Positions 1-13,860 of a stretch of 13,860 nt of DNA are shown here, piece after piece. The notes beneath the pieces are model-generated. The model was given only the letters and a program-made list of their open reading frames with translations, ran no database searches and was not told the origin of the DNA. This DNA is from Pseudomonadota bacterium (lineage in GTDB: Bacteria; Pseudomonadota; Alphaproteobacteria; Rhizobiales; Hyphomicrobiaceae), in assembly GCA_021813195.1 (NCBI GenBank), contig JAKALI010000046.1, positions 1 through 13,860 on the forward strand. The letters run 5' to 3'. Within the stretch, counting starts at the first letter, position 1; the number at the start of each line of letters is the position of its first letter. The translations under genes were made by a program, and so were the position numbers.

Positions 1-1613
1 GAGACGGTTTCTATACCAACCTCTACAACGGCTCGAACATCGACAAGCTGAACAGCAATACAATTCGAGGCTATCTGAAGTGGACACCGAACGCCAATTT
101 GGACGTGACGCTAGAAAGCCAAGTGCAGACAATCGATATTGGCGATACTCTTCTGCAAAATCTTGCCTATCCAGGCGAAGTGTTCTATCGCCCAAACACA
201 CCGGTCAATTTCACAATTTACGACAATGTTCCTGGGCTGAACAAGGTCAACACCCAGAGCCATACGATAACAGCCAATTGGAGTAGCGGTTTCGGTCAGG
301 TAACCTCAATTACAAATTACCAAGACTACAACACGACTGGAAACCTAGATGTCGCGGGTATCAACTGCTATTGCCTAGATCAATTTAGTCGGGACACTGG
401 CTGGCAGGCGTCAGAAGAGCTACGTGACGCGTTCCACGTAACCAAAAATCTGAGAATGCTCGTGGGCGTGTTCGGACAGACTTGGTACGACGACACCGAC
501 GGCCCCGCAACGATACCGTTTGTCTCGCCGAATCTTGTCACACGCGGCATTACCAAGGAGCGTAGCTCGAACCTATCTGCATTCGCACAAGGTTATTGGG
601 ATATTACAGATCGTTTGGAGGTGCAGGGCGGCGTGCGTGTCAGCTGGGACAAGGTATTTTTGAGCGAAGCAGCTTTGAACTACTTTCAACCGGCCGGCAC
701 CAGCCCGCTACTTCTCGGGGACAATTTGAGAGGCGCTATTCTACTGCCGTACACGCCTGGCAATCAACCAAACTCAGGCAAACACGATTGGCTAGACGTG
801 GGCGGAAAGATTGGTCTGAATTATCATGTCACCGATCAAATTATGACCTACGGCTACTATGCGCGCGGGTTCAAATCCGGTGGCTTCAACGGCCGCGTCA
901 CCGTCGCTCAGGCGATCGGGCCATACGACGCTGAAACCGTAGACACCTTTGAGGTTGGTGTTAAGTCGGAGTGGTTTAATCATCGCCTTCAATTGAACGC
1001 CTCTGCTTTCCTCAATAAGTGGGCGAATATGCAGGTTCAACAGTCAAATTATACTGGTCCGACGATTGCATCGGTTATTCTCAATGCCGGTAAGGCCACG
1101 ACGAAAGGGTTTGAGCTTCAGCTTACAGCTGTGCCGATCGAAGGGCTGCAGATCGGTGGAACCTTGGGTTATCTGAATGCGTCCTACGATCAATTCCTGT
1201 CGAGTAGCAATCCACTTTGTCCGCCGGCACCGGCGGCGCAACCACCAGGGTGCGCGGTAAGCTATGGAGGTCGTACCTTGCCATACGCGCCCCAGTGGAC
1301 CGGCTCTATTTTAGGCAGCTATACATTCGATGTTGCGCATGGAGCGGCGACGGCTAGCGTTCAGTACACCTATACCGGAAAGAAGTGGGGGAACTACACC
1401 TATGCGCCAACGGAAGCACTGCCAGCGGTCGGTCTTCTGAATGCAAACGTTTCTTGGGGACCGGATGACGCCAATTGGTCCCTTGAATTGTGGGGTCGGA
1501 ATATAGCCAACAAGACTTACGTGGCTACGGCATTGGATGTGCCGCCGTTGTTTACTGAAGCCACGTTGGGAAACCCCCGCGAGTGGGGAGCAACTCTCAA
1601 GTTCAATATGTAA
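1..1613 (+). CDS. TonB-dependent outer-membrane receptor, C-terminal part (5' end outside window)
   Basis: The reading frame is open from base 3 and ends at TAA 1611-1613, giving 536 residues of beta-barrel; the signal peptide and plug lie upstream of the window. The first residues, DGFYTNLY, match the second receptor (codon 13659 onward), so roughly 220-245 N-terminal residues are missing. Barrel hallmarks include alternating aromatic strands, YGYYARGFKSGGFNGR, a late-barrel segment (FEVGVKSEW, then LNASAFLNKWANMQV), and a C-terminal ELWGRNIANKTY...REWGATLKFNM. Two cysteine pairs (CYC, and C-PPAPAAQPPG-C) sit in probable extracellular loops. The family imports scarce or bulky ligands across the outer membrane using TonB/ExbBD energy. 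The downstream AttH/CrtC-like and dikinase-like genes suggest an organic hydrophobic ligand rather than a siderophore, but this is inference. An internal TTG at 99 is not a real start, because homology to the second receptor extends to base 3. Confidence 0.93.
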   Translation, partial: DGFYTNLYNGSNIDKLNSNTIRGYLKWTPNANLDVTLESQVQTIDIGDTLLQNLAYPGEVFYRPNTPVNFTIYDNVPGLNKVNTQSHTITANWSSGFGQVTSITNYQDYNTTGNLDVAGINCYCLDQFSRDTGWQASEELRDAFHVTKNLRMLVGVFGQTWYDDTDGPATIPFVSPNLVTRGITKERSSNLSAFAQGYWDITDRLEVQGGVRVSWDKVFLSEAALNYFQPAGTSPLLLGDNLRGAILLPYTPGNQPNSGKHDWLDVGGKIGLNYHVTDQIMTYGYYARGFKSGGFNGRVTVAQAIGPYDAETVDTFEVGVKSEWFNHRLQLNASAFLNKWANMQVQQSNYTGPTIASVILNAGKATTKGFELQLTAVPIEGLQIGGTLGYLNASYDQFLSSSNPLCPPAPAAQPPGCAVSYGGRTLPYAPQWTGSILGSYTFDVAHGAATASVQYTYTGKKWGNYTYAPTEALPAVGLLNANVSWGPDDANWSLELWGRNIANKTYVATALDVPPLFTEATLGNPREWGATLKFNM

Positions 1614-1619
1614 AGAGGA

Positions 1620-1653
1620 CGTGGGCTGTTCTGCTAGCGAAGAACAGCCCGTG
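1620..1653 (+). terminator. Perfect 10-bp stem-loop between receptor and AttH/CrtC-like gene
   Basis: GGGCTGTTCT (1623-1632) and AGAACAGCCC (1641-1650) are perfectly complementary around an 8-base loop. The stem can be extended by two G-T pairs and a C-G pair (1620/1653). It starts 6 bases after the receptor stop and lies about 30 bases before the next start. No T-run follows, so it is not a canonical intrinsic terminator. It may instead act as a 3' mRNA stabiliser or a partial terminator that gives the receptor and the downstream enzymes different expression levels. The structure is seen directly; the function is inferred. Confidence 0.45.
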
Positions 1654-1682
1654 CCCAGTTAGCTAGAAGGTAAGAGGGTAGA

Positions 1683-2672
1683 ATGGTACTCAAAGCCGAA
1701 GACGAGCTCCGCCACGCGGTGAGCGACGATTACTATTTCAGAGAAAGTCTATATTTCAATTTTAACGACACCAAGAATAATCTTGGCGCATGGTTCTATT
1801 TCTGGGTTACGCCGAACAGAGAATCGCCGGCAGGAATGCTGGTTAGCCTTTATCACGGTTGCTGGCCGGATAAGAAAGTCAACGACAAGGCGATGGCTGC
1901 ACCTGGGCACCGTCTCGTCGAAGGCGATCGGTGGATCTATTGTTTTACGCGTGAAGTCGATTTTCAATTCAACGGCAATTTCGACGATGCAGAGCTTTGC
2001 GGCTTGCGCTTGCACAGACTTGAGCCATTGAAGCACTACAAGATTCTGTTCGACGATAAGGAAGGTAACACCGTCGATATCGACGCAGCGTTCATGATGC
2101 CGCCCTACGATTATGCCGATGGCGTCAACAGGACGCCGTTATGGGTGGCGACCAATCGGTACCACCGAGCATGGTGGGCGAAGGGCACGCTCAAAATTGG
2201 CGGTCAAATTTACAAAGTCGATTGCACGGGCGATTCCGATCACTCCTGGGGACAACGGCATATGGGGGTGTTCGTAGAGAACTTGTTCAAGATGTGGTCG
2301 TTTCAGACGTCGGATGGCCGCACCGCGATTTCCGCGATCCAACAGGGCAAGGCGGGCGAGGAGTTCGCATTGGGCTACGTGGTTCTGGACGGAGAGGTTG
2401 CCTCTGTAGCGACCGTCAATGCCAAGTCCTTATATGACCGGAACGGTGTACCGCACGATGTCGATCTTGTGGTGACAGACGCGCTCGGGCGGACGGTACG
2501 AGCGCGGTTCGATAAGATGCAGTCACATCTCGGTTCAGGCGACGTGTTCTGGGGCTACGAAGGTGTGGGCAACTATCAAGTGGAAGGATTCGGAACAGTG
2601 CCAGGCCTGATCTCCTATTTCTGGCCGTCCAGTACGACGGCAGCTGAACTACACGCGGGAAAGAAGAATTGA
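1683..2672 (+). CDS. AttH/CrtC-like (hydroxyneurosporene-synthase-like) lipocalin-fold protein, copy 1
   Basis: This 329-residue protein has no signal peptide and is probably cytoplasmic. It carries a GDSDHSWG motif at residues 183-190 (His187, Trp189), a signature of the AttH/CrtC lipocalin-like superfamily that includes carotenoid 1,2-hydratase. A second conserved block near the C-terminus is GYEGVGNYQVEGFG. The N-terminus (MVLKA.DELRH) and most aromatic positions recur in the homologue at 9371-10375; identity is about half by eye. The start ATG 1683 has an AGAGGG ribosome-binding site at 1673-1678. The gene lies 69 bases after the receptor and 48 before the dikinase-like gene, in a likely operon. 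The superfamily acts on or binds hydrophobic molecules such as carotenoids; a hydratase reaction here is unproven. The repeated pairing with the dikinase suggests a shared substrate. Family placement is reasonably sure; function is not known. Confidence 0.85.
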   Translation: MVLKAEDELRHAVSDDYYFRESLYFNFNDTKNNLGAWFYFWVTPNRESPAGMLVSLYHGCWPDKKVNDKAMAAPGHRLVEGDRWIYCFTREVDFQFNGNFDDAELCGLRLHRLEPLKHYKILFDDKEGNTVDIDAAFMMPPYDYADGVNRTPLWVATNRYHRAWWAKGTLKIGGQIYKVDCTGDSDHSWGQRHMGVFVENLFKMWSFQTSDGRTAISAIQQGKAGEEFALGYVVLDGEVASVATVNAKSLYDRNGVPHDVDLVVTDALGRTVRARFDKMQSHLGSGDVFWGYEGVGNYQVEGFGTVPGLISYFWPSSTTAAELHAGKKN

Positions 2673-2707
2673 AAGTTCGTCACGTAGCGAGGCTGATTAT
2701 ACATTTC

Positions 2708-2713
2708 GAGGAG
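2708..2713 (+). promoter_or_regulatory. Ribosome-binding site of dikinase-like copy 1
   Basis: GAGGAG lies 7 bases before ATG 2721. It fixes the start of the protein at MGWIVLPSD, which aligns with MAWIFSHSD of the second copy. Confidence 0.7.
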
Positions 2714-2720
2714 TGAAGGT

Positions 2721-5258
2721 ATGGGTTGGATCGTGCTGCCATCCGATCCGCGGTGCGTAGAAGAGGAAGTCGCCGGAGGCAAGGGCGCGTCGCTGGCGCG
2801 GCTGTGTAATCTGGGGTTCAAGGTGCCACGGTTTGTGGTGATTGCCGCGTCGGCGTTCCGTCAGATGGCTCACTGCGAGCCGAGCGCGAGCTTCTTGGAA
2901 GATTTGCGCGAAGTGCTCAGGGAATTTGATCTGGAGGGCGGGATTGCAGTGCGCTCCTCGGCGATCGGCGAAGATGCAGCCGATAGTTCGTTTGCGGGTC
3001 TTTATCATACCTCTCTGGATGTGCGAAGCTTCGAGGAAGCGGTGGAGGCAATTCGGCTGTGTTGGGCGTCCTATCGCAATGCCGCTGCAGCAGAATATCG
3101 CGAAGAGCGCACGGTGGTACGAGATGGTGCCATGGCGGTGGTCTTGCAAGCGATGGTGCACGGCGAATGGTCCGGGGTGTGCTTCACCGCGAACCCGGTG
3201 AATTTGTCGCTGTCGCAAGGGCTTATTAATGCTGTGCCGGGCCTCGGCGAGGCGCTGGTGTCGGGCACGATCAACCCCGAAGAGATCACGGTTTTAGCGA
3301 ACGAGGGCGGGATCGTGGACCGCAAGGGGGGCGATCATACTCTTCCGCTACCGGCGGCGACTGCAGCAGCGGTATGGCAAGCAAGCAAGGCGATTGCGGA
3401 GAATTTGCGTTTTCCGCAGGACGTGGAATGGACTTGGCGCAATGGGGAGCTTTATGTCTTGCAGAGCCGCCCGATCACCACCATCGCCGACGTCTTCTAT
3501 AGCCGCATGCTGGAGCCATGGCAGGCCGATCCGTTGGCCGATCCTGACGATCCGGCCCGCATCTGGTCGCGAATGATGGCGGACGAGACCTGGGTCTCTC
3601 CAATCAGTCCGTTGTTCTATAATGTTCATAATCTATCGTTCGCGCGCATTAACTTCATTCGCCTTCATGGCGATCGCAGCTGGTTGCCGCCGGATATTTT
3701 CAAGTATCACCGGGCGACGGCGTATGCCGATGTGCAGATGATCCGGCGCATGTACAGTTTCCAGCCGCGGCTGGCGCGTATCCGGGGCATTTTGAATTTT
3801 CTGCCGGCTGGGATGCAAGAAGAATTCCGCCGCGAGCGCTTCCACTGGTTGGGCAGGCTCTACCGCATTTTGCGCTACGAATGTAGTAATCGCAAAATAC
3901 GGTCGTTCTTTCGAAATTATAGCTATGTCGCGGCGCAGTGGCCCGACTATGTCGCCAAGAGCGACCGCTGGCTGGATATGGATCTCGATGCGCTGACGCT
4001 GGAGCAATTGCGTGCGCACCAAGCCGAAGTCGGCCGGGCGATGGCGGAGGTCAGTCCGCCCTGTGGAATTGGTGTATTCCACGCATCCGATCTCCACTTG
4101 TTGCTGACTGGTCTGCTTGATCGCTGGTGTAAGCATCTTGGCTCGGACGGGGAGAATCTCTACGCGCGGATTAGCGCGGGCCTGGACGACAGCGAGACGG
4201 TGCGTGAGAGCGAGGAGTTGTGGGAACTGGCCCAACTTCTGCGGGCGCTGGGTTCGCAACTAGTGTCATTGGCGGACCGATTGGATTGGATAAGTTTCCG
4301 GCAGGCGGCTTCGGGCCATGTCCATGGCTCCCGCATGATCGCGGCATTCGAGACGTTCTGGCGTAACCATCGCCATCTAGGTTCGACCTACAAAGATCTG
4401 ATCTGGCCGCGCTGGGGCGACGACATGGATCAGTGCTTTGCGGTGGTGAAGGCCTATGCGCAAAGCACGGCGGAGCGGCCGAGCGTGGTGAACGCGCGTA
4501 GTGCGCAGTCACGGCGCGCAGCGCAGAAGCATATATTGGCTTCGCTACGCGGCCCGTTGGCGCCATTACGCCGGCAGGTTCTGCGTTTTCTGTTCCGCTA
4601 CAACGAGATCTACATGGCGGTGCGAGACAACCACCGATTCTACGTTGATCGCAATTGGTACGAAGTGCGTCGGATCTACCGCTCCTATGGAGCGCGGCTT
4701 GCGGCCGCCGGCGTTTTGCAGGCGCGCGATGAAGTATTTTTCCTGGGCACGGCTGAGGTAGAAGCGGGGCTAGCCGGAATGCTTGACGGGGCTGAGGCTT
4801 CGCGCCGCATAGCAGTACGACGGCGGGTGTGGGAAAGCACATTGAGACAACAGGGTCCAAAATTCTTGAAGGGCTGGGCACCTTATGCGGACCTGCTGGC
4901 AGGCGAAACCGGGGCAACGGCGCTGCGTGGCATCGCTGCGAGTCCAGGCTCTGCAGTGGGAACGGCGCGGGTGGTTTACGACGTGCGCGATCTCAGCCTC
5001 GTCAAGGACGGCGAGATTCTGGTGACGCGTCAGACCGATCCGTCCTGGACCACCGTGTTCGGGCGGATCGTCGGCCTCGTGCTGGAAACCGGGGGCGTGC
5101 TGTCTCACGGTACTTCACTATGCCGCGAGTATGGCTTGCCGTGTGTGACTTCGGTCGAGCAGGCAACAGTAAAAATTCCCAACGGCAGCACCATTGAGCT
5201 GATCGGCAGTGAGGGTGTCATCAATATCCTCGCCACACCCGTACTTCAATTATCCTAG
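2721..5258 (+). CDS. PEP-synthase/rifampicin-phosphotransferase-like dikinase, copy 1
   Basis: This 845-residue protein has an N-terminal PPDK/PEP-synthase ATP-binding domain at about residues 10-260: GGKGASL 19-25, AVRSSAIGEDAADSSFAG 76-93, SGVCFTANPVN 151-161, FPQDVEW 231-237 and LQSRPIT 247-253. A long, mostly helical middle region of about 260-735 follows. The C-terminal PEP-utilizer swivel domain, about 740-840, has GGVLSHGTSLCREYGLPCV with the presumed phospho-acceptor His796. The PEP/pyruvate-binding TIM barrel of true PEP synthase is absent. This is the layout of rifampicin phosphotransferase, where ATP phosphorylates the swivel histidine, which then modifies a substrate bound in the middle domain, giving AMP and phosphate. 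The natural substrate here is unknown. The protein is probably cytoplasmic. It follows the AttH/CrtC-like gene by 48 bases. Its codons look richer in G/C than those of its neighbours. Rifampicin itself is unlikely, given the catabolic context and the paralogue at 10385. Confidence 0.9.
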   Translation: MGWIVLPSDPRCVEEEVAGGKGASLARLCNLGFKVPRFVVIAASAFRQMAHCEPSASFLEDLREVLREFDLEGGIAVRSSAIGEDAADSSFAGLYHTSLDVRSFEEAVEAIRLCWASYRNAAAAEYREERTVVRDGAMAVVLQAMVHGEWSGVCFTANPVNLSLSQGLINAVPGLGEALVSGTINPEEITVLANEGGIVDRKGGDHTLPLPAATAAAVWQASKAIAENLRFPQDVEWTWRNGELYVLQSRPITTIADVFYSRMLEPWQADPLADPDDPARIWSRMMADETWVSPISPLFYNVHNLSFARINFIRLHGDRSWLPPDIFKYHRATAYADVQMIRRMYSFQPRLARIRGILNFLPAGMQEEFRRERFHWLGRLYRILRYECSNRKIRSFFRNYSYVAAQWPDYVAKSDRWLDMDLDALTLEQLRAHQAEVGRAMAEVSPPCGIGVFHASDLHLLLTGLLDRWCKHLGSDGENLYARISAGLDDSETVRESEELWELAQLLRALGSQLVSLADRLDWISFRQAASGHVHGSRMIAAFETFWRNHRHLGSTYKDLIWPRWGDDMDQCFAVVKAYAQSTAERPSVVNARSAQSRRAAQKHILASLRGPLAPLRRQVLRFLFRYNEIYMAVRDNHRFYVDRNWYEVRRIYRSYGARLAAAGVLQARDEVFFLGTAEVEAGLAGMLDGAEASRRIAVRRRVWESTLRQQGPKFLKGWAPYADLLAGETGATALRGIAASPGSAVGTARVVYDVRDLSLVKDGEILVTRQTDPSWTTVFGRIVGLVLETGGVLSHGTSLCREYGLPCVTSVEQATVKIPNGSTIELIGSEGVINILATPVLQLS

Positions 5259-5433
5259 TAGGAGCACTTTGCGCTTTTTAGGAATGTGCAGTTGGTGACG
5301 CCACCGCCGGGAGTTAATCTCGGTTGAACTTGAGTCTGGCACGTGTCTGATCGCGCTCATCGCGCGTTCGCGCTGGTGCTATCTGCGGGTAAGCTGCGAC
5401 TGCGTGCTGACAGAGCCGTGCCAGCCGCTGGTC
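5259..5433. other. Convergent intergenic gap
   Basis: This 175-base gap separates two converging genes, the dikinase-like gene and the acyl-CoA ligase. No strong intrinsic terminator was found. TGGCACG (5337-5343) and CGTGCCA (5417-5423) are complementary but about 73 bases apart. With adjoining TGTC/GACA they could close a large imperfect stem. No gene was recognised here. Confidence 0.5.
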
Positions 5434-7020
5434 TCAATTGACTCGGCGTTCCCGTCCGGTCCAGTAGGGTTCACGCAACTGCCGGCGCAGGATTTTGCCT
5501 GAGGCATTGCGCGGGAGGGCCCCGATAACATCCACGCTCTTTGGTGCTTTGAATGCGGCGATGCGTTCACGGGCGAAACGGATGATGTCGGCAGGGTCGA
5601 TGGCCTTGCCTGGCTTTGGCACGACGATAGCCTTCGGGACTTCACCCCACCTTTCGTCTGGCACGCCAATCACCGCCACCTCCAAGATGTCTGGGTGGCC
5701 GTAAACGGCACTTTCAACTTCCGCCGGGTAGATGTTCTCGCCGCCGGAGATGATCATGTCCTTGACGCGGTCCTGGATGAAGAGATAACCGTCCTCGTCG
5801 AGATAGCCCGCGTCGCCGGTCTTGAGCCAGCCTTCCGCGTCGATAGTCTTGGTCGTCGCCTCGGGAAGATTCCAGTAGCCGGCCATGTTCGCCACGGCGC
5901 GAACCGCAACCTCGCCAACCGTGCGCGGTGGTACGGCTTCACCATTCTCGCCGATCACCTTCAGTTCGACACCTGGCATCGGAATGCCCGCGGCCCGCAT
6001 GCGCGCATTGCCAGCCGGATCATGGTCCTCCGGAGGCAGGAAGACGATGGTGCCGCAAGTCTCTGTCATGCCGTATTGTTGAACAAAACCGCAGCCAAAC
6101 ACCTCCATGCATTCGCGCAAAAGGTCGAGAGGGATCGGCGAGGCGCCGTACAGGATGTATTTAAGGCGCGAATAATCGATCTCCCGCGCCCGCGGCAGAT
6201 TTACAACGATCTGCAGCGCAGCTGGCACCATGAACATCTTTGAGATTTTGTCCTTCTCGATGAAGTCGAGTACCTTCGTGGGATCGAATTCCCGTGCGAT
6301 TACACCCTTGGCGCCATTGTAGAGCCCAACCATGCCCCAGCCAGTGCCGCCGATGTGTGCCACCGGCATGGCTACAAGACTCACATCCTCCGGGCCCCAC
6401 TCATTCCATTCCATGTGCGAGCCGGCGGCAGCGCGTCGGCCGCCCAGCAAGTTCCGGTGCCGCAGCATCGCGCCCTTTGGATTGCCGGTCGTGCCCGAGG
6501 TGTAGAGCTGCAAGGTCACATCTTCTTCGGAGATCGGCAACAAGGGGTCACTGTCGGGTTGTTCGTCGCGCCAGTTTTCGAACAGAGGCCAACCACCGTC
6601 GCAGGGTTCCATGGCGATGATCTGCTGCACTGTCTTGAGTTCGCCCTCGATTTGCCTAACCAAGTCGGTGCATTCGGGCCCCACAAACAACAATTTCGCG
6701 TGCGCGTCGTTGATCATATACGCGACCTCACGCGGAGCAAGGCGCCAGCCCACAGGCGTCATAATAGTGCCAGCCTTGGCGCCACCGAATTGCAGCTCAA
6801 AATAGTGGTCGCTGTTCTTGCCCAGATAGCAAATGTGGTCGCCGTTCCTCACGCCGATAGCGACCTGCGCATTGGCGACCTGGCTGGTGTGACGGTCGAA
6901 TTCGCCGAAGGTCGTAATTCGGCCCTCGAAGGTGAGGGCAACCGCATTCGGCCGTTCGCGTCCGTGATAACGCGGAATGTCAGCTAGGGTCGGCATCTGA
7001 GAATGATCGATGGTCTGCAT
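5434..7020 (-). CDS. Acyl-CoA ligase (AMP-forming, ANL superfamily)
   Basis: This 528-residue protein, of full family length, has every ANL motif. These are the P-loop YTSGTTGNPKG at 173-183, YGMTE at 316-320, TGD at 401-403, DRVKDMIISGGENIYPAEVE around 417-436, and PRNASGK ending in the catalytic Lys509. These enzymes adenylate a carboxylic acid with ATP and transfer it to CoA. The sequence reads like the medium/long-chain or cyclic-acid CoA ligases of catabolic operons; substrate class cannot be read from it. It is the last gene of a minus-strand operon with the SDR and VOC genes, 72 bases behind the VOC gene. The start at 7020 has AGGGCAGG just upstream; Met9 is a possible alternative. It probably activates a carboxylate formed from the imported compound for beta-oxidation-type breakdown, which is inference. 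Confidence 0.95.
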   Translation of the reverse strand: MQTIDHSQMPTLADIPRYHGRERPNAVALTFEGRITTFGEFDRHTSQVANAQVAIGVRNGDHICYLGKNSDHYFELQFGGAKAGTIMTPVGWRLAPREVAYMINDAHAKLLFVGPECTDLVRQIEGELKTVQQIIAMEPCDGGWPLFENWRDEQPDSDPLLPISEEDVTLQLYTSGTTGNPKGAMLRHRNLLGGRRAAAGSHMEWNEWGPEDVSLVAMPVAHIGGTGWGMVGLYNGAKGVIAREFDPTKVLDFIEKDKISKMFMVPAALQIVVNLPRAREIDYSRLKYILYGASPIPLDLLRECMEVFGCGFVQQYGMTETCGTIVFLPPEDHDPAGNARMRAAGIPMPGVELKVIGENGEAVPPRTVGEVAVRAVANMAGYWNLPEATTKTIDAEGWLKTGDAGYLDEDGYLFIQDRVKDMIISGGENIYPAEVESAVYGHPDILEVAVIGVPDERWGEVPKAIVVPKPGKAIDPADIIRFARERIAAFKAPKSVDVIGALPRNASGKILRRQLREPYWTGRERRVN

Positions 7021-7092
7021 GTTCCTGCCCTGAAAGGTAAAATGTTAGTGTTGTAGAAGGAGAGGGGCGGCAATGTTTCGCACCTCCAAACA

Positions 7093-7482
7093 TCAGAGCC
7101 TCTCAAGAAACTCAATCTCTCGGCCCTCAGGATCCTGTACGAATGCCACGCGCAAACCGGGCACATCGAAAGGGCTCCTTTGAGCCACCGCACCTTGCGC
7201 TATTGCGTGCGCAAACGCTGAATCCGCGCTTTCGACGTAGATACCGAGAGGGCCATATCTGTTCCCAATTACAGCAACGATTTCGTCTGTCGGCTTATAG
7301 AGAACTAGGCAGAATCCTTGCGTATTTCCAGCAGGACGCAAAACAACTTCCGTAGCTGTGCCAGCATCGATCGTCCGAACTACACGCAGGTCCAATAGGC
7401 ATTCATAAAAGGCCGTCATTGCCTTAAGGTCGTGAACGACAAATTTCATAAAGGCAAATTCGATTTCCGATGCGACCGCCAT
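7093..7482 (-). CDS. VOC/glyoxalase-fold protein
   Basis: This 129-residue protein is the size of a single VOC unit with two beta-alpha-beta-beta-beta repeats. It begins FAFMKFVVHDLKAMTAFYECLL and ends FVQDPEGREIEFLERL, the classic first and last strands of the glyoxalase/bleomycin-resistance/dioxygenase superfamily. His17 and Glu124 sit where metal ligands are usually found. Members include lyases, epimerases (for example methylmalonyl-CoA epimerase), extradiol dioxygenases and binding proteins; none can be picked here. Its ATG shares one base with the TAA of the upstream SDR gene (TAATG, 7480-7484), indicating translational coupling. A role in the same pathway as the SDR and ligase is therefore likely. 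Confidence 0.85.
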   Translation of the reverse strand: MAVASEIEFAFMKFVVHDLKAMTAFYECLLDLRVVRTIDAGTATEVVLRPAGNTQGFCLVLYKPTDEIVAVIGNRYGPLGIYVESADSAFAHAIAQGAVAQRSPFDVPGLRVAFVQDPEGREIEFLERL

Positions 7483-8255
7483 TACGCGCTCTGTCCACCA
7501 TCAACAGCAAGCATTGCTCCGGTCAGGAAGCTCGCTATCGGGCTGAGAAGGAATGCGGCCACAGTGCCGATTTCGTCTGGAGTTCCGAATCGCTGAAGAG
7601 GAGTCTCGCGGCGGATCCAGCGGTCCCACGCTTCGTGGCGGGGCCCTCTCATGCGTTCGTCCCATTCACCTCCCGGGAAAATAATATTACCAGGCGCGAG
7701 TGCGTTCACACGGATGCCAGAGCGGCCGGCAATCTTCGCAAGTTCGCCGCTAAGATGATTTACCGCTGCCTTTGCGGTGCCGTATGTCAACCCTGTGCCC
7801 ATTGCGCTAAGGCCCGCGATCGAGCTGATCAAGAGAATTGCACCTTCTTTGCGTGGCGTCATACGTCGAAGAGCAGATCGCGCGACCCGGAAAGAGGCGC
7901 CCAAATTTTGATCGATGCCAGCCGCCCAAGCATCGTCCCCCACGTCGAAGCCGGGAGGGCAGGCGTGAATGCCAACATTGGCGACCACGCCCCAGATGGA
8001 TCCAAGCTGATCTTCGCAGGCAGATACAGCTCCTTCCACATCCGTGGTGTTGCGCATATCTGCCGCGACGGACCAGATCCTATCCCGGCCGTAGGTGCTT
8101 GCGAGGTGGTCTGTCGTTACATTGAGCGGTTCGGCCCTGCGCGCCACCAGGCAAACTTTCGCACCCTCTCTAAGGCAAGACTCGGCTATACCGAGGCCGA
8201 TCCCCCGACTGGCTCCCGCCAAAAAAATGACCTTGCTCTCCAGTTGCAAATCCAT
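7482..8255 (-). CDS. Short-chain dehydrogenase/reductase (SDR)
   Basis: This is a classical SDR of 257 residues counted from ATG 8255 (MDLQLESKVIFLAGASRG). A TTG four codons upstream (8267) is a less likely start. Motifs are the dinucleotide-binding GASRGIG (14-20), the tetrad Asn117, Ser145, Tyr158 and Lys162 in YGTAK, and a C-terminal LAVDGG. The usual NAG motif reads NVG (93-95), a mild variant. A basic ARR after the second strand suggests, weakly, NADP(H) preference. The family interconverts alcohols and ketones, including on steroids, terpenoids and hydroxyacyl-CoAs. It is the first gene of the minus-strand operon, divergent from the TetR gene and coupled to the VOC gene by TAATG. It probably oxidises a hydroxyl on the pathway intermediate; the substrate is unknown. 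Confidence 0.93.
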   Translation of the reverse strand: MDLQLESKVIFLAGASRGIGLGIAESCLREGAKVCLVARRAEPLNVTTDHLASTYGRDRIWSVAADMRNTTDVEGAVSACEDQLGSIWGVVANVGIHACPPGFDVGDDAWAAGIDQNLGASFRVARSALRRMTPRKEGAILLISSIAGLSAMGTGLTYGTAKAAVNHLSGELAKIAGRSGIRVNALAPGNIIFPGGEWDERMRGPRHEAWDRWIRRETPLQRFGTPDEIGTVAAFLLSPIASFLTGAMLAVDGGQSA

Positions 8256-8292
8256 TGCACTGTCCAAATATCATGCCCGTGCAAAACTTATT

Positions 8293-8320
8293 CAAGTCAC
8301 TAGCGAAATCAAGTAACTAG
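8293..8320. promoter_or_regulatory. Direct repeat CAAGTNACTAG in the divergent SDR/TetR gap
   Basis: CAAGTCACTAG (8293-8303) and CAAGTAACTAG (8310-8320) are 11-base direct repeats with one mismatch, 17 bases apart start to start. They lie 38-65 bases upstream of the SDR start. The core TNACTAG also occurs as an inverted pair at 9227-9254, before the second AttH/CrtC-like gene. This is a candidate binding site for the divergent TetR regulator. The repeat is seen; the operator role is inferred. Confidence 0.45.
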
Positions 8321-8329
8321 AATTATCAA

Positions 8330-8360
8330 GACGGCCTGACACGCGAATCGCAGGCCGGTC
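8330..8360. promoter_or_regulatory. Inverted repeat upstream of the TetR gene
   Basis: CGGCCTG (8332-8338) and CAGGCCG (8351-8357) are perfectly complementary around 12 bases. The pairing extends outward to GAC/GTC if one bulged base is allowed. A shorter palindrome, GCGAATCGC (8343-8351), is nested inside. It lies in the divergent gap about 90 bases before the TetR start. It could be an operator or a leader hairpin; there is no T-run after it. Confidence 0.35.
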
Positions 8361-8449
8361 TGCTTTGTCGTCAAGGCTTTGCCTCCGGCGCCGTAGGGCG
8401 TACTGGAGAAGTCCCCTCCACATTCTAAAGAGGTCACTTAGAACTCGAT

Positions 8450-9130
8450 ATGTCGCTCAGAGAACGCAAAAAGGCCGCTACCCGCGCAGCACTGATCGCA
8501 ACCGCACGCAGACTGTTTGCCGAGAAGGGATATGACAATGCCACGCTTGGCGAAATCTGCGAGGCCGTCCAAATCCATCCAACAACCTTCTTTTCTTATT
8601 TCCAAAGCAAGGAAGAGCTTGCCTTCGCGCGGACGCTAGACATGCTCGAGATGTTCAAGAAGGAGATGGCTGAGAAGCCTCCAGAAATCGACGCGACAAC
8701 ACTATTCTGGAATTTTATGCATGAATTCAGCCTACGGGCACGCTCCGAAGAGAGTGCCCTTATGCAAAGCATGGACGCGGTTCCGGCTCTTCGTAGCCGC
8801 TATACGAGCATCGTGCGGGCCTACGAAGACGAACTGGCCACTGCATTCGCAAGGGAAGATGGTGTTGACCCAAAGGCAGATCTCTATGCACGTCTAAAAG
8901 CTGCCGCGCTTCTCAGCACAGTAGTTGCGACCGCACGCTGGCTCGTTGAGGTCTGGGGCGCACGAGATGCATGGGGATCAGATCCAGAAATCTTCCCCAA
9001 GATGATTTTGGCAAATTTTCCTACACGCAAGCAATTTGAGACCGAACAAGCTCGGTTCATGCGCAACTCCAAGCGCAAACGATCACATACCGCCACAAAG
9101 CCCGCTCCTGTGCGAACCCGGCGCCGATAG
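8450..9130 (+). CDS. TetR/AcrR-family transcriptional regulator
   Basis: This 226-residue protein has a standard N-terminal TetR DNA-binding domain. RERKKAATRAALIATARRLF is helix 1, and TLGEICEAVQIHPTTFFSYFQSKEEL (about residues 32-57) is the helix-turn-helix. The C-terminal ligand-binding domain, about 60-205, is poorly conserved, as is usual. The last ~20 residues form a strongly basic tail (KRKR, RTRRR), which is not typical and may be disordered. The gene is divergent from the SDR-VOC-ligase operon, a common arrangement for a repressor controlling its neighbour. Its ligand is probably the pathway substrate or a CoA thioester. The start ATG 8450 has only a distant purine stretch (AAGAGG, 8428-8433), so the ribosome-binding site is weak. 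Confidence 0.92.
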   Translation: MSLRERKKAATRAALIATARRLFAEKGYDNATLGEICEAVQIHPTTFFSYFQSKEELAFARTLDMLEMFKKEMAEKPPEIDATTLFWNFMHEFSLRARSEESALMQSMDAVPALRSRYTSIVRAYEDELATAFAREDGVDPKADLYARLKAAALLSTVVATARWLVEVWGARDAWGSDPEIFPKMILANFPTRKQFETEQARFMRNSKRKRSHTATKPAPVRTRRR

Positions 9131-9215
9131 CCACTTAGTCGCGAACAGCCCGCCCGTCCGCCGGTTTCTTCCGAAGGCCTACTGGCCTAGTTCGGTAGTG
9201 CGACATTCTGCCTCA

Positions 9216-9259
9216 TACAATAAAAGCTAGTCAATAGAAAAATCATATGACTAGATAAT
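9216..9259 (+). promoter_or_regulatory. A/T-rich candidate promoter for the second AttH/CrtC-like operon
   Basis: Two -10-like hexamers occur in an A/T-rich stretch of the gap 9131-9370: TACAAT (9216-9221) and GATAAT (9254-9259), each five of six to consensus. Neither has a good -35 at standard spacing. The palindromic pair at 9227-9254 overlaps this stretch, as expected for a repressed promoter. The leader to the start codon would be about 105-145 bases. Confidence 0.35.
9227..9254. promoter_or_regulatory. Inverted repeat CTAGTCA-N14-TGACTAG, candidate operator
   Basis: CTAGTCA (9227-9233) and TGACTAG (9248-9254) form a perfect 7-base inverted pair in a 28-base frame. That length is acceptable for a TetR-family operator, including ones bound by two dimers. 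The half-site TNACTAG is shared with 8297-8303 and 8314-8320 in the SDR/TetR gap. It is therefore likely to be regulated by the adjacent TetR protein, although binding is not shown. Confidence 0.5.
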
Positions 9260-9335
9260 AAGGCAGGATCGAAAATCCGGAGCCGCAGCAAGCGAAGACG
9301 CCCAATTTAAGGGTCGCTGCAGTTCGGAAAGTATT

Positions 9336-9354
9336 TGCGCTGACGGCGAGCGCA
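9336..9354 (+). other. Small stem-loop just before the ribosome-binding site
   Basis: TGCGCT (9336-9341) and AGCGCA (9349-9354) pair perfectly around a 7-base loop, ending 2 bases before the AGGGAGAGG ribosome-binding site (9357-9365) of the next gene. It might shield or stabilise the leader. In G+C-rich DNA such short stems also arise by chance. Confidence 0.25.
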
Positions 9355-9370
9355 GCAGGGAGAGGCGCGA

Positions 9371-10375
9371 ATGGTTTTGAAGGCTTCGGATGAACTACGC
9401 CATAAATGGGATAAGGATCGTTTGTGGCGTGAGAGCTGGTACTACAACTATTCCGATCCGAAGAACGAAATCGGCGCATGGCTGTATCTGTGGATCGTAC
9501 CGAACCAGCCTCTCAAATCGGGAATGCTGGTCTGTTTCTATCACGGCATCGCGGCCCACTTTAACTCGACCGACGTTGCGTGGGGTTCTTCCGGCCACCT
9601 TCTCAAAGGATCAAACGGCAGTTGGACGTATTGCTACAAACGGGACGTGCCAGATCTCATAGATGCCGATCTCGACGACGTTGAATTGTGCGGCCTGTCG
9701 ATGAAACGGCTGAGACCGCTGAAGCAGTACCACCTACAGTTCGTCGATGGCGCCAATTGCATTTTCGATGTCGACTGCCAGTTCATGTCAGAGCCTTGGG
9801 ATTTCGACGACAACATACACCCGACGCCGCGCTGGCTAGCGAAAAACAGATACCATCGGGGCTGGAAGGCACGAGGCCGTCTCACAATCGCGGGGCAAGA
9901 TTACGAGGTGGATACAACGGGCGATTCGGACCATTCCTGGGGTACCCGGGACATGGGAATCTTCGAACAAAACAATTTGAAGACCTACGCGCTGCAGTCC
10001 CCCGATGGAGCGCTTTCGGTGAAAGCTCAGATGCTGGGGTCGCCTGGCAAAGAGTTGCCTCGCGGATATATCGCTCACAGCGAGAAAATGTGGGCTGTGA
10101 AGTCGATTATCGAAAGCTCCCGTTACACGGAAACTGGTGAAATGTACGATATCCGCTTACGCGTCGAAGACGTCGAAGGACACGTCGTTGAAGCCCATAT
10201 GGACAAGATGTACGCAGCGGTAGCGGGAGGCGGACCAAACGTCGGCTATGAAGGGGCAGGCATTTACGATGTGAAAGGCTGGGGAAAGTGCGCTGGTCTT
10301 GCGTCGTGCTGGTGGTCGAACGCTGTTACACGCGACCAGCTTCGCAACGGGGACGCGGGGAAAACTTCATCCTAG
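9371..10375 (+). CDS. AttH/CrtC-like lipocalin-fold protein, copy 2
   Basis: This 334-residue homologue of the product of 1683-2672 is collinear from MVLKA.DELRH to the C-terminus. GDSDHSWG is at 184-191 (His188), preceded by the shared segment RYHR.W.A.G.L.I.GQ.Y.VD. The C-terminal block is GYEGAGIYDVKGWG. Both copies also keep GMLV..YHG and DD.ELCGL. There is no signal peptide. The start has a strong AGGGAGAGG at 9357-9365. The stop lies 9 bases before the next dikinase-like gene, tighter than in module 1, so the two proteins are probably made together. The family handles hydrophobic molecules (CrtC hydrates carotenoids); the reaction here is unknown. The middle portion (about residues 65-95 and 200-245) differs most from copy 1, which could reflect a different ligand. 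Confidence 0.86.
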   Translation: MVLKASDELRHKWDKDRLWRESWYYNYSDPKNEIGAWLYLWIVPNQPLKSGMLVCFYHGIAAHFNSTDVAWGSSGHLLKGSNGSWTYCYKRDVPDLIDADLDDVELCGLSMKRLRPLKQYHLQFVDGANCIFDVDCQFMSEPWDFDDNIHPTPRWLAKNRYHRGWKARGRLTIAGQDYEVDTTGDSDHSWGTRDMGIFEQNNLKTYALQSPDGALSVKAQMLGSPGKELPRGYIAHSEKMWAVKSIIESSRYTETGEMYDIRLRVEDVEGHVVEAHMDKMYAAVAGGGPNVGYEGAGIYDVKGWGKCAGLASCWWSNAVTRDQLRNGDAGKTSS

Positions 10376-10384
10376 GGCACGGAC

Positions 10385-12916
10385 ATGGCTTGGATCTTCA
10401 GCCATTCCGACACGCTTTGTCTGGAAGAGCGTGTGTCGGGCGGCAAAGGTGCCTCACTTGCACACCTCCGCCGAATGGGCGCAAACGTGCCCCGCTTCTT
10501 TGTGGTTGCAGCACAAGCCCATCGTGATCTCGAACATGGTCTGACGAACGACTTTCTATCGGAATTACGAGCAGCTGTCTCCAAGTTTGATGTCGGGACG
10601 GAACTCGCAGTGCGGTCCTCCGCCATAGGAGAGGATGCGGCCGACAGCTCTTTCGCTGGCCTTTATCATACTGAGCTTCAAGTCCGCGGATTCGAAGCCA
10701 TTGTTGAAGCTATCAAAGCCTGCTGGGCGTCGTACCGCAATGTTGCCGCTCAAAAATATCGTGACGAGCGGACCTCTGAGCGCCCAGATGGCGCGATGGC
10801 AGTTGTCATCCAGGAGATGATCGTAGGCGACTGGTCTGGTGTTTCCTTTACTGCCAATCCGGTCAACCAGTCCCTTTCTGAAGGTCTGATCAATTCAGTA
10901 AGTGGGTTAGGGGAGGCGTTGGTATCCGGCAACGTGAACCCAGAAGAAATCAAAGTGAGCGCCCATGATGCGAGGATATTGGCCCGCAATCCTGGCGACC
11001 AACTGAAACCCCTCCCCGACGAAGTAGTTGCCGAAATTTGGCGTGTATCAAAGCAAATCGCGGACGAGCTTGCCTTTCCACAAGATGTTGAATGGGCGTG
11101 GCGCAATGGTAGACTGTTCGTACTCCAGAGCCGGCCTATCACAACCATCGCCGACGTCTTCTACAGCCGCATCCTCGAACCGTGGAAAGGCAATCCAGAA
11201 GCCAAGCCTGACGATCCGAATCGGATCTGGTCACGGATGCTGGCCGACGAGACCTGGGTTTCACCCATCAGCCCCTTATTTTACAATATTCACAATTCCA
11301 CGCCAGGTCGGGTCGGGTTCATACGCTCCCACGGCGACAAGTCCTACCTGCCACCAGACCTATTCAAGTATCACCGCGCAACGGCATACGCCGATATCCA
11401 GTTGATCCGGCGAATGTATGAGTATCAGCCACAGATTGCGCGCATCCGCGGCATCCTGAATTTCCTTCCAACGCACATACAGTCGGATTTCAAAAAGAGT
11501 CCGTTCCGCTGGGCAGGTCGATTAAGGCGCATGCTCAGCTACGAGTTCACAGGACGGCAAACTCGGTCACTCTTTGAAAATTATCGATACGTCAACACCC
11601 AATGGCCGGACTATGTCGCCGTAAGTAATCGCTGGCTGGATATCGATTTGGATTCCCTAAGCCTTGAGGAGTTGCGCATACATCAGGCGCTGGTGCGAGA
11701 GGAGATGGCAAAGGTCGGCGCGCCCTGCGCCATAGCGGTCCTATCACACGCGCAAGATCTGCACTTGCTCCTGACAGGTCTACTCGACAAATGGTTTGCG
11801 CACCTCGGATCGGACGGAGAAAATCTCTATGCTCGCATCAGCTCAGGCCTCGATAACAGCGAGACCGTCAAAGTGGCCGAGACCCTGTGGGGTATATCCC
11901 AAAGGATCAAAGAGCTCGGGCAGCAAGCGACTTCATGGGCTCAAAGTAGCAGATGGCGATCGTTCAAAGAAAGAGTTGAGCAGCTGGAAGGTGGGCCGGC
12001 ACTCATAGATGCCTTTGAAACCTTCTGGCGTAACCATCACCATCTGGGCTCAACTTATAAGGACGTGATTTGGCCTCGATGGGGAGACGATATCGATCAA
12101 TGTTTCGCCGTCGTGGTCGGCAATCTTGAAAGCGCTGGGCCGCGCCCCTATGAATTCAATGTGCGCAGTGCCCAGGTGCGACGCGACAGCCAGCGCGAGC
12201 TGTTGAATGCCCTGCGCGGGCCGATGGCGGCGTTCCGTCGTCGCACATTGCGCTGGCTGTTTCGATACAATGAATACTACATGTCCGTACGGGACAATCA
12301 CCGCTATTACGTGGACAGAAACTGGTACGAAATCCGGCGGATTTATCTGTCGTATGGGAAAAGGCTAACTGACCTTGGTGTACTCAAATCGCGCGATGAC
12401 GTGTTTTTTCTTGGCACCGAGGAGGTCGAAGCAGGGCTCGTCGGCACCTTAGAAGGCGAAGAAACGTCACGGAGAATCGCGGTGCGCCGCAAGGTTTGGA
12501 ATGATACCTTGCGTTCCCAGGGACCAAAATTTCTAAGGGGATGGGCGCCGCTCTTAGACACTCAGAGCGTTGCCGCAGCGGGCGCAGTCAGAAGCTTGAA
12601 CGGAATCGCGGCAAGCCCAGGTACCGCAGTCGGAACAGCTCGCGTCGTATACGACGTGCGAGAACTCCCTAACGTCAAAGACGGTGAAATTCTCGTCACG
12701 CGGCAAACGGATCCTTCATGGACAATGGTCTTTGGACGGATCAGTGGCCTTATCCTCGAAACCGGGGGAGTACTCTCGCACGGGACGTCGCTCTGTCGCG
12801 AGTACGGCTTGCCGTGCGTCACAGCGGTTGAGCAGGCGACGGTAAAAATTTCCGATGGCAGCAAAATCGAACTCATTGGGAGTGAAGGAACGATACGTCT
12901 CTTGGATATTGTTTAA
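10385..12916 (+). CDS. PEP-synthase/rifampicin-phosphotransferase-like dikinase, copy 2
   Basis: This 843-residue protein is collinear with the product of 2721-5258 (roughly 60-70% identical by eye). The ATP-grasp motifs are GGKGASL 19-25, AVRSSAIGEDAADSSFAG 75-92, SGVSFTANPVN 151-161, FPQDVEW 231-237 and LQSRPIT 247-253. The swivel domain carries GGVLSHGTSLCREYGLPCV with presumed phospho-acceptor His799. The PEP-binding barrel is again missing. Middle-domain blocks are strikingly kept between the copies: DETWVSPISPLFYN, FKYHRATAYAD, ARIRGILNFLP, HLGSDGENLYARIS, GSTYKD.IWPRWGDD and VRDNHR.YVDRNWYE. These may line the acceptor site and suggest the same substrate class. Likely role: ATP-dependent phosphorylation or activation of an organic substrate through a phosphohistidine. 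The gene is followed by the TonB receptor start after 13 bases. Confidence 0.9.
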   Translation: MAWIFSHSDTLCLEERVSGGKGASLAHLRRMGANVPRFFVVAAQAHRDLEHGLTNDFLSELRAAVSKFDVGTELAVRSSAIGEDAADSSFAGLYHTELQVRGFEAIVEAIKACWASYRNVAAQKYRDERTSERPDGAMAVVIQEMIVGDWSGVSFTANPVNQSLSEGLINSVSGLGEALVSGNVNPEEIKVSAHDARILARNPGDQLKPLPDEVVAEIWRVSKQIADELAFPQDVEWAWRNGRLFVLQSRPITTIADVFYSRILEPWKGNPEAKPDDPNRIWSRMLADETWVSPISPLFYNIHNSTPGRVGFIRSHGDKSYLPPDLFKYHRATAYADIQLIRRMYEYQPQIARIRGILNFLPTHIQSDFKKSPFRWAGRLRRMLSYEFTGRQTRSLFENYRYVNTQWPDYVAVSNRWLDIDLDSLSLEELRIHQALVREEMAKVGAPCAIAVLSHAQDLHLLLTGLLDKWFAHLGSDGENLYARISSGLDNSETVKVAETLWGISQRIKELGQQATSWAQSSRWRSFKERVEQLEGGPALIDAFETFWRNHHHLGSTYKDVIWPRWGDDIDQCFAVVVGNLESAGPRPYEFNVRSAQVRRDSQRELLNALRGPMAAFRRRTLRWLFRYNEYYMSVRDNHRYYVDRNWYEIRRIYLSYGKRLTDLGVLKSRDDVFFLGTEEVEAGLVGTLEGEETSRRIAVRRKVWNDTLRSQGPKFLRGWAPLLDTQSVAAAGAVRSLNGIAASPGTAVGTARVVYDVRELPNVKDGEILVTRQTDPSWTMVFGRISGLILETGGVLSHGTSLCREYGLPCVTAVEQATVKISDGSKIELIGSEGTIRLLDIV

Positions 12917-12918
12917 GC

Positions 12919-12924
12919 GGGAGG
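12919..12924 (+). promoter_or_regulatory. Strong ribosome-binding site that sets the receptor start
   Basis: GGGAGG sits 5 bases before ATG 12930 and directly after the dikinase-like stop (12914-12916). It favours 12930 over the in-frame ATG at 13002, which has a weaker AGGGG about 8-9 bases upstream. Confidence 0.6.
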
Positions 12925-12929
12925 AAACG

Positions 12930-13860
12930 ATGAGGCCCATAAAGCGGCCCGGGCAAACGGCGGCATCAGCTTTGTTCCACAACCAGTCAGGGGCAGAAAG
13001 CATGAGATACCCAAATAGGCGCGCGGCGAGATCATTGCATTTATTGCTTATGGTAAGCACCTGCGTGCTTACGCTACCTGTCAGCGCATCAGCACAAAGC
13101 AGCACACCGCAAGGCAAAAAGGTTGGCGGTATCGAGACTGTTGTGGTGACGGCAGAAAAAAAACAAGAGGATGTGCAGACCGTTCCGCTGTCGGTTACGC
13201 CCATTTCGGGTGGGGAGATGCAGAAGCTGCATGTTCAGGACTTCAAAGATATTACTGGTATGGTTCCTAATGTCCAGGTTCAGGTAAATGCAGGACTTAG
13301 CCTAGCGGCGTCTTATGTCATCCGCGGCATTGGTATTGCTGCGAACCCATCGCCGTACGTAGGCACTGAAGTAGGAACAGTCATAGATGGAGTCGTCCAA
13401 ACCGTAAATGAGCTGGGGCTTATTGATCAGTTTGATGTTGATCGAATCGAGGTTCTCCGCGGTCCGCAAGGAACGCTGTTTGGCGCCAATACGACCGGTG
13501 GCGTAATCAATGTCGTGACGCGCCAGCCGACAGGAAAATACGGCGCCTATGGCACGGTTACTTTCGGCAGCTATAACGAGTTGGATGGCGCGCTAGCAGT
13601 CAACTTCCCGATCAGCGACGATCTCGCCGGGAAAATATCTTTCTCGCACCGCGCCCGCGATGGCTTCTATACCAACCTCTACACTGGAAGCCGAATCGGC
13701 GGAATCGATAGTAATCAGCTTCGCGCGTACCTGAAATGGACGCCAACGGAAAATTTCGACGCCACGCTGGAATATTACTTCCAGAACAAGGGCTTCATCG
13801 CGGCCGGCGCTTATTACAAGAACATCAAGAACCGCATCATCAGCCAGAGCGACGTCGAGA
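12930..13860 (+). CDS. TonB-dependent outer-membrane receptor, N-terminal part (3' end outside window)
   Basis: The frame is open from ATG 12930 to the window end (310 full codons). A hydrophobic core (LHLLLMVSTCVLTLPV) precedes an ASA|QS cleavage site after about residue 55. The n-region is long with this start; the alternative ATG 13002 would give an ordinary 31-residue signal peptide. A TonB-box-like IETVVVTAEKK (68-78) follows. The plug domain contains VIRGIG, the RIEVLRGPQGTLFGANTTGGVINVVT motif and the first barrel strands. RDGFYTNLY and AYLKWTP match the start of the receptor at 1-1613, so the two are paralogues. From about residue 282 (13773) the sequence no longer follows the first receptor. 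YYFQNKGFIAAGAYYKNIKN resembles a late barrel strand, and codon usage changes. It is last in the operon with the AttH/CrtC-like and dikinase-like genes. It imports an unknown ligand. Confidence 0.9.
   Translation, partial: MRPIKRPGQTAASALFHNQSGAESMRYPNRRAARSLHLLLMVSTCVLTLPVSASAQSSTPQGKKVGGIETVVVTAEKKQEDVQTVPLSVTPISGGEMQKLHVQDFKDITGMVPNVQVQVNAGLSLAASYVIRGIGIAANPSPYVGTEVGTVIDGVVQTVNELGLIDQFDVDRIEVLRGPQGTLFGANTTGGVINVVTRQPTGKYGAYGTVTFGSYNELDGALAVNFPISDDLAGKISFSHRARDGFYTNLYTGSRIGGIDSNQLRAYLKWTPTENFDATLEYYFQNKGFIAAGAYYKNIKNRIISQSDVE

Follow-up and report, generated by a model that had tools for sequence, protein, structure and literature searches.

A duplicated pair of AttH-like and dikinase genes in a Hyphomicrobiaceae contig as a candidate ATP-driven dehydration module

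What reaction might be carried out by a protein of the AttH/CrtC fold and a dikinase-type phosphotransferase that are encoded side by side, twice, around a set of catabolic genes? The question is raised by a 13,860-nucleotide stretch of DNA from a member of the Hyphomicrobiaceae (contig JAKALI010000046.1 of assembly GCA_021813195.1; hereafter, the window, meaning the whole stretch analyzed). Gene calls and Pfam matches give ten protein genes, in which two AttH–dikinase pairs surround an operon for a CoA ligase, a VOC protein and a short-chain dehydrogenase/reductase (SDR), together with a tetR gene, as an earlier note on this DNA had described. By analogy with a known steroid system, we consider it rather probable that each pair is a two-step ATP-driven dehydration module. 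Kinase and putative lyase are encoded together, with intergenic gaps of 48 bases in module 1 and 9 bases in module 2:

1683–2672, plus strand: AttH1, a DUF7065/DUF7064 protein and putative phospho-lyase of clade B, motif residue D186 (PF23212, tree)
2721–5258, plus strand: DIK1, a rifampin-phosphotransferase-like dikinase of 845 aa (PF01326 and PF00391, tree)
9371–10375, plus strand: AttH2, a DUF7065 protein and putative phospho-lyase of clade A, motif residue D187 (PF23213, AlphaFold2 model)
10385–12916, plus strand: DIK2, a rifampin-phosphotransferase-like dikinase of 843 aa, swivel histidine H799

In the proposed sequence of events, the swivel histidine of the dikinase would be loaded from ATP, yielding AMP and Pi, and the enzyme would phosphorylate a hydroxyl; the acceptor is most likely a terpenoid- or steroid-like compound whose alcohol is tertiary or for other reasons difficult to eliminate. 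Its partner, the AttH-fold protein, would then eliminate the phosphate to leave a C=C bond, in the manner of 25-phosphosteroid lyase (25-PSL). The TonB receptor beside each pair probably imports the substrate, the SDR and CoA ligase would oxidise and CoA-activate a product, and the two diverged copies probably serve different positions or substrates. We infer these reactions, their order, the substrate class, the role of the receptors and the division of labour, as well as the step from structure to reaction. The earlier note had made phosphorylation an early step in uptake and activation; with the AttH-like protein read as a putative phospho-lyase relative, phosphorylation is probably one of the two steps of a dehydration driven by ATP, more than activation or uptake alone.

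This kind of reaction is already known from one anaerobic sterol pathway. In Sterolibacterium the kinase 25-HSK phosphorylates a tertiary steroid alcohol, and elimination of the phosphate then gives a trisubstituted alkene; the detour is explained by phosphate leaving more readily than water (PMC7411048, PMC8449060, PMC11061730). Two papers that mention the phosphosteroid lyase treat it as still putative or its gene as unknown, and the 2021 paper reports no lyase candidate near the kinase gene (PMC8449060). The 25-HSK/25-PSL system of Sterolibacterium denitrificans resembles the lyase half of the window in fold, in profile-level homology and in a D-x-S-W-G-x-R motif, and follows the same proposed logic of ATP-dependent dehydration through a phosphoester. 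In place of a kinase gene with no lyase candidate nearby, the window has the two genes separated by 9 or 48 bases and, together with receptors, present twice.

For the AttH-like proteins, Pfam at E up to 0.001 reported DUF7064 and DUF7065 alone, with no match to an AttH or CrtC model. Each protein passes at least one gathering cut-off: AttH1 that of PF23212 (DUF7064; 34.3 bits, cut-off 24.7), falling under that of PF23213 (DUF7065; 24.4 bits, cut-off 27), and AttH2 that of PF23213 (29.8 bits). The AttH/CrtC-like label of the earlier note holds for the predicted fold and not for the Pfam family. In an AlphaFold2 model of AttH2 (pLDDT 94.0), the best structural match is 25-PSL, which is also the nearest by Foldseek and whose fold is matched across the whole chain. 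Moreover, a DUF7065 profile reaches 25-PSL at E 7e-24 and AttH at 5e-4, and a hydratase and cyclases gave no match to it at E up to 10. The D-x-S-W-G-x-R motif is common to 25-PSL and AttH2, in which D187, S189, W190, G191 and R193 are catalytic-type residues that do not vary across 60 aligned relatives; the product-bound 25-PSL chain has N at the D187 position. The fold had earlier been taken to bind hydrophobic molecules; with these structural and profile matches, the protein is better read as a putative phospho-lyase relative than as a mere binder. It represents a subfamily distinct from the Rv3169 family (NF053593), in which NCBI's model places 25-PSL itself and which the window proteins match weakly (E 7.6e-10 for AttH1, and 1.2e-6). 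In alignment A3, identity to the first row does not exceed 31% outside that row's own near relatives.

The kinase half matches rifampin phosphotransferase (RPH) along its whole length, and RPH enzymes are the closest solved structures (PDB 5fbs/5hv1; 758 residues alignable, 21–24% identity in structural alignments). Both dikinases have the architecture of RPH-type small-molecule dikinases, an ATP-grasp domain and a substrate domain followed by a C-terminal swivel histidine, which supports the ATP-driven phosphohistidine transferase of the earlier note, with a small molecule as the likely acceptor; in contrast to RPH, they stand in no antibiotic context. Phenolic dikinases such as HpeHI show that this fold is able to start a catabolic pathway (PMC12167813). 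HpeHI, CreHI and PpsAB are two-component enzymes, whereas each window dikinase is a single polypeptide whose partner is a lyase-fold protein. One database protein, P0066, was considered as an AttH–dikinase fusion and rejected; its AttH part is followed by low-complexity sequence and then by the start of the neighbouring dikinase, which looks like frameshift read-through.

The earlier note had named rare linkage elsewhere as one ground for giving up its reading. The AttH–dikinase pairing is instead conserved. Relatives were listed from 5.8 billion database proteins: 120 of the 122 AttH matches, the best 120 of 2300 dikinase matches and the best 120 of 207 receptor matches. Among the listed AttH and dikinase relatives, named records include Caulobacteraceae and Phenylobacterium. 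Linkage was approximated by an identical size of the longest contig in two lists, with sizes offset by 1 to 50 bases as the control. On contigs of at least 10 kb, 26 of 44 distinct AttH contig sizes, the window included, recur among the listed dikinase matches, against 0.04 by offset; over all contig sizes, 32 are common to the listed AttH and dikinase matches (0.23 by offset). The expected TonB receptor linkage is likewise present: for receptors of at least 45% identity on contigs of at least 10 kb, 17 of 30 sizes occur among the listed AttH or dikinase matches (0.1 by offset), compared with 2 of 31 for receptors below 45% identity. Viewed in reverse, against the best 120 of 207 receptor matches, 17 of the 69 contig sizes for dikinases recur, as do 9 of the 44 for AttH. 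Ten contig sizes have two listed AttH proteins and ten have two listed dikinases, which makes a pair of modules a common arrangement.

Whole genomes seldom carry the subfamily. G001 is a Rhizomicrobium metagenome-assembled genome; among the 96 genomes of its order, 4 contain the dikinase at E up to 1e-100. At E up to 1e-150, G001 itself is the single genome with a match, out of 398 of the phylum and likewise out of 289 of the class. A scan of genome contigs gave two loci only, one of them a weak Streptomyces match; a plasmid tblastn at E up to 1e-60 gave no match, and viral contigs gave one pattern match and no relative. The 7.1-kb locus of G001 (L001) carries VOC, SDR, TetR, AttH and dikinase genes arranged and oriented as in module 2 (55%, 73%, 70%, 83% and 74% identity), with neither the ligase nor the first module on its 7.1 kb. 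A 19.2-kb locus in G039 (L011) has receptor, AttH, dikinase and TetR in the order of module 1 (68%, 72%, 65% and 58%). The TetR relatives occupy the same relative place in both. With one module each and the operon genes partly retained, these loci count against the whole set as a fixed unit. A third locus, L012 in G020, reads dikinase, TetR, receptor, AttH, P450, AttH, dikinase, and its cytochrome P450 gene (L012:10210-11547) is flanked by the two AttH-like genes. This placement is reminiscent of the CreHI–P450 system for p-cresol.

If DUF7065 proteins are phospho-lyases, kinase neighbours are expected of them generally. Among the 96 genomes of the G001 order there are 23 DUF7065 genes, of which at least 6 have a phosphoenolpyruvate (PEP)-utiliser (swivel) domain within 5 kb (0.18 expected; binomial p 1.8e-8) and at least 4 an APH-like gene (0.76 expected; binomial p 0.006), the p values treating as independent genes that are not fully so. 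Expectations derive from densities in the 17 genomes concerned (50 swivel and 216 APH-like genes in 65.4 Mb). Taking both kinase types, 10 of the 23 genes in this alphaproteobacterial order adjoin one. In Actinomycetes, DUF7065 occurs in 48 of 296 genomes. From these we selected 20, mostly the best-scoring and four for long frames; of their 60 DUF7065 genes, 20 are accompanied within 5 kb by a swivel-dikinase gene, against 1.39 expected, and at least 25 by an APH-like gene, against 2.64, with 44 having one kinase type or the other. A swivel-dikinase or APH-like kinase was present in 19 of the 20 actinobacterial loci fetched, L036 being without, and Pfam confirmed APH in 13 of 16 APH-bearing loci. 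Two actinobacterial frames (L050:2125-4074 and L041:3525-5636) fuse an APH/ecdysteroid-kinase-like domain to DUF7065 and then DUF7064, and L051 to L053 have a similar fusion appearance by local search; a structure-database search with the L050 fusion returned kinase structures only and did not retrieve 25-PSL. Three more distant DUF7065 loci (L030, L035 and L039) have the swivel half and no ATP-grasp match.

Several other features of these loci were observed. The actinobacterial genomes G833, G760 and G783 contain 21 to 23 swivel-dikinase domain matches each, an unusually large number, many of which adjoin DUF7065 genes, and one frame beside a DUF7065 gene holds two PEP-utiliser swivel domains (L016:7178-10735). 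In the kinase-less loci L017, L018, L019, L021 to L029 and L031, most aligned members have the motif GLRDKSWGPRYWQ or similar; this subgroup of DUF7065 in several cases adjoins an acyl-CoA ligase.

A number of results weigh against the dehydration reading. The structural Z scores are close (25-PSL 25.1, AttH 2ich 24.0, Diels-Alderases 23.7), and with 25-PSL about one unit ahead of AttH 2ich the fold alone does not decide the reaction. AttH 2ich also has an aspartate at a similar place, so that this residue by itself is not lyase-specific. A profile of the close subfamily alone reaches 25-PSL only at E 0.13, single distant DUF7065 proteins used as queries did not retrieve it, and the window proteins score 38.3 and 27.8 bits with NF053593, short of its cut-off of 150. 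The Sterolibacterium kinase is of an ADP-forming phosphotransferase family and not a dikinase (PMC8449060), whereas the window has an RPH-type dikinase; the precedent for the kinase half therefore differs. Finally, 13 of the 23 DUF7065 genes in the G001 order, those of the GLRDKSWGPRYWQ subgroup, showed no kinase in the fetched flanks, which also speaks against a universal rule, and for 16 of the 60 actinobacterial genes no kinase was found.

We rate other accounts of the pair as less probable. The dikinase might make a stable phosphoester that traps or marks the substrate, as proposed for HpeHI, with the AttH-fold protein serving a later step of the same pathway as a hydratase, isomerase or cyclase that does not depend on phosphate. 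We hold this to be unlikely: 25-PSL is the nearest structure by Foldseek and is far nearer than AttH by profile, the hydratase and cyclases have no profile match, and the pairing or fusion of DUF7065 with kinases of two folds is what one would expect of a lyase that consumes a kinase product. That RPH enzymes are the closest solved structures would suit a detoxifying phosphotransferase, in a module whose role would be defence against a natural product and not nutrition. We give this little credence, since the dikinases score 233.9 and 277.1 bits with NCBI's model for RPH proper (NF041857), far under its cut-off of 999, the neighbours are a TonB receptor, a CoA ligase and an SDR, with a P450 in L012, and a dedicated partner gene is conserved. 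Less credible again is a biosynthetic module in which the dikinase is a PigC/RedH-like ligase driving the condensation of two molecules with ATP; the PigC/RedH models NF052631/NF052632 do score 270 to 299 bits, but their cut-offs of 1300 and 1350 lie far above, the scores are comparable to those of PEP-synthase and RPH models, and no other biosynthetic gene was recognised among the ten genes of the window.

Extending the dehydration reading beyond the window, we see about an even chance that DUF7065/DUF7064 proteins (the Rv3169/25-PSL superfamily) are a general phospho-lyase class whose partners are neighbouring or fused kinases, RPH-type dikinases in some cases and APH/ecdysteroid-kinase-like kinases in others, and hence of at least two unrelated folds. 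ATP-driven dehydration would then be common in the catabolism of soil bacteria, beyond the special case of anaerobic sterol degraders, and the window would show a form of it that runs on a dikinase and has been duplicated together with TonB receptors of its own. If so, several bacterial phyla would apply the same chemistry, the ATP-powered removal of water from bulky, greasy molecules, to other hydrophobic compounds with two kinds of kinase. The proposal supplies a concrete candidate reaction for a domain-of-unknown-function family and for dikinases labelled PEP synthase, pyruvate,water dikinase or rifampicin phosphotransferase. It would also predict that proteins of the Rv3169 family, to which the name of NCBI's model assigns no function, act on a phosphoester. 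In the literature searched, which most subscription journals lay outside, we found no paper with this gene set, and no account of a dikinase-based version, of such close linkage, of a duplication that includes receptors or of kinase pairing across the family; no paper on DUF7064 came up, and among the papers listed for Rv3169 the name occurred in no title or abstract.

How old is the duplication? The paralogy that the earlier note had seen is evident: AttH1 and AttH2 are identical at 139 of 327 positions (43%, E 2e-96) and DIK1 and DIK2 at 561 of 841 (67%). In quick maximum-likelihood trees with SH-aLRT support only (124 AttH and 118 dikinase rows), the two AttH proteins belong to separate deep groups, of 56 rows (support 93) and 66 rows (support 100). 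DIK1 and DIK2 share a single clade of 63 rows (96) but sit in different starred sets within it, one of 7 rows and one of 9 (both 99). The AttH groups and separate dikinase sets rule out a recent tandem duplication. Duplication of the whole module is too simple a description, for AttH1 belongs to clade B though DIK1 shares the clade of DIK2, which implies that partners were exchanged or diverged at different times. The trees thus indicate that putative lyase and kinase have different histories and that the pairs diverged anciently.

The receptors are paralogues too. Their fragments overlap by only 38 residues within the window, 25 of them identical, and a full-length protein of 757 aa that is identical to receptor fragment 1 (P0241) aligns with receptor 2 at 136 of 258 positions (53%). 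P0241 sits on a 14,097-base contig that encodes proteins identical to receptor 1 and DIK1 and probably has the same source as the window. The longest frame of receptor 2 begins at 12855; its true start is probably 13002, where the alignment with its relative P0279 begins (75% identical across 257 residues). Both copies of the three-gene module reported earlier are present, but not strictly collinear, since the receptor lies upstream in module 1 (receptor–AttH–dikinase) and downstream in module 2 (AttH–dikinase–receptor). The remaining features are as follows:

3–1613, plus strand: TonB receptor 1, C-terminal 536 residues, running off the window start (PF00593, E 3.3e-42)
1622–1651, between receptor 1 and AttH1: hairpin with 11-base arms and one mismatch, GGGCTGTTCT...AGAACAGCCC (sequence scan without shuffle control)
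5434–7020, minus strand: acyl-CoA ligase, AMP-binding (PF00501, E 4.1e-78; NF004837, 629 bits, cut-off 476)
7093–7482, minus strand: VOC/glyoxalase-fold protein (PF00903, E 1.9e-8)
7482–8267, minus strand: SDR (PF13561, E 1.7e-46)
8450–9130, plus strand: TetR-family regulator between two divergent gene groups (PF00440, E 9e-14)
13002–13860, plus strand: TonB receptor 2, N-terminal part, running off the window end (PF07715, E 4.4e-17)

An Rfam search of the window returned nothing at gathering scores. AT-rich near-repeats at 8295–8321 and 9229–9255, in both gaps flanking tetR, are possible regulator sites; we do not claim TetR operators, as the best stretches common to the two gaps (at 8295 and 9229) have 3 mismatches in 16, without shuffle control. 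The hairpin at 1622–1651, a strong one, may be an attenuator, a processing site or a terminator.

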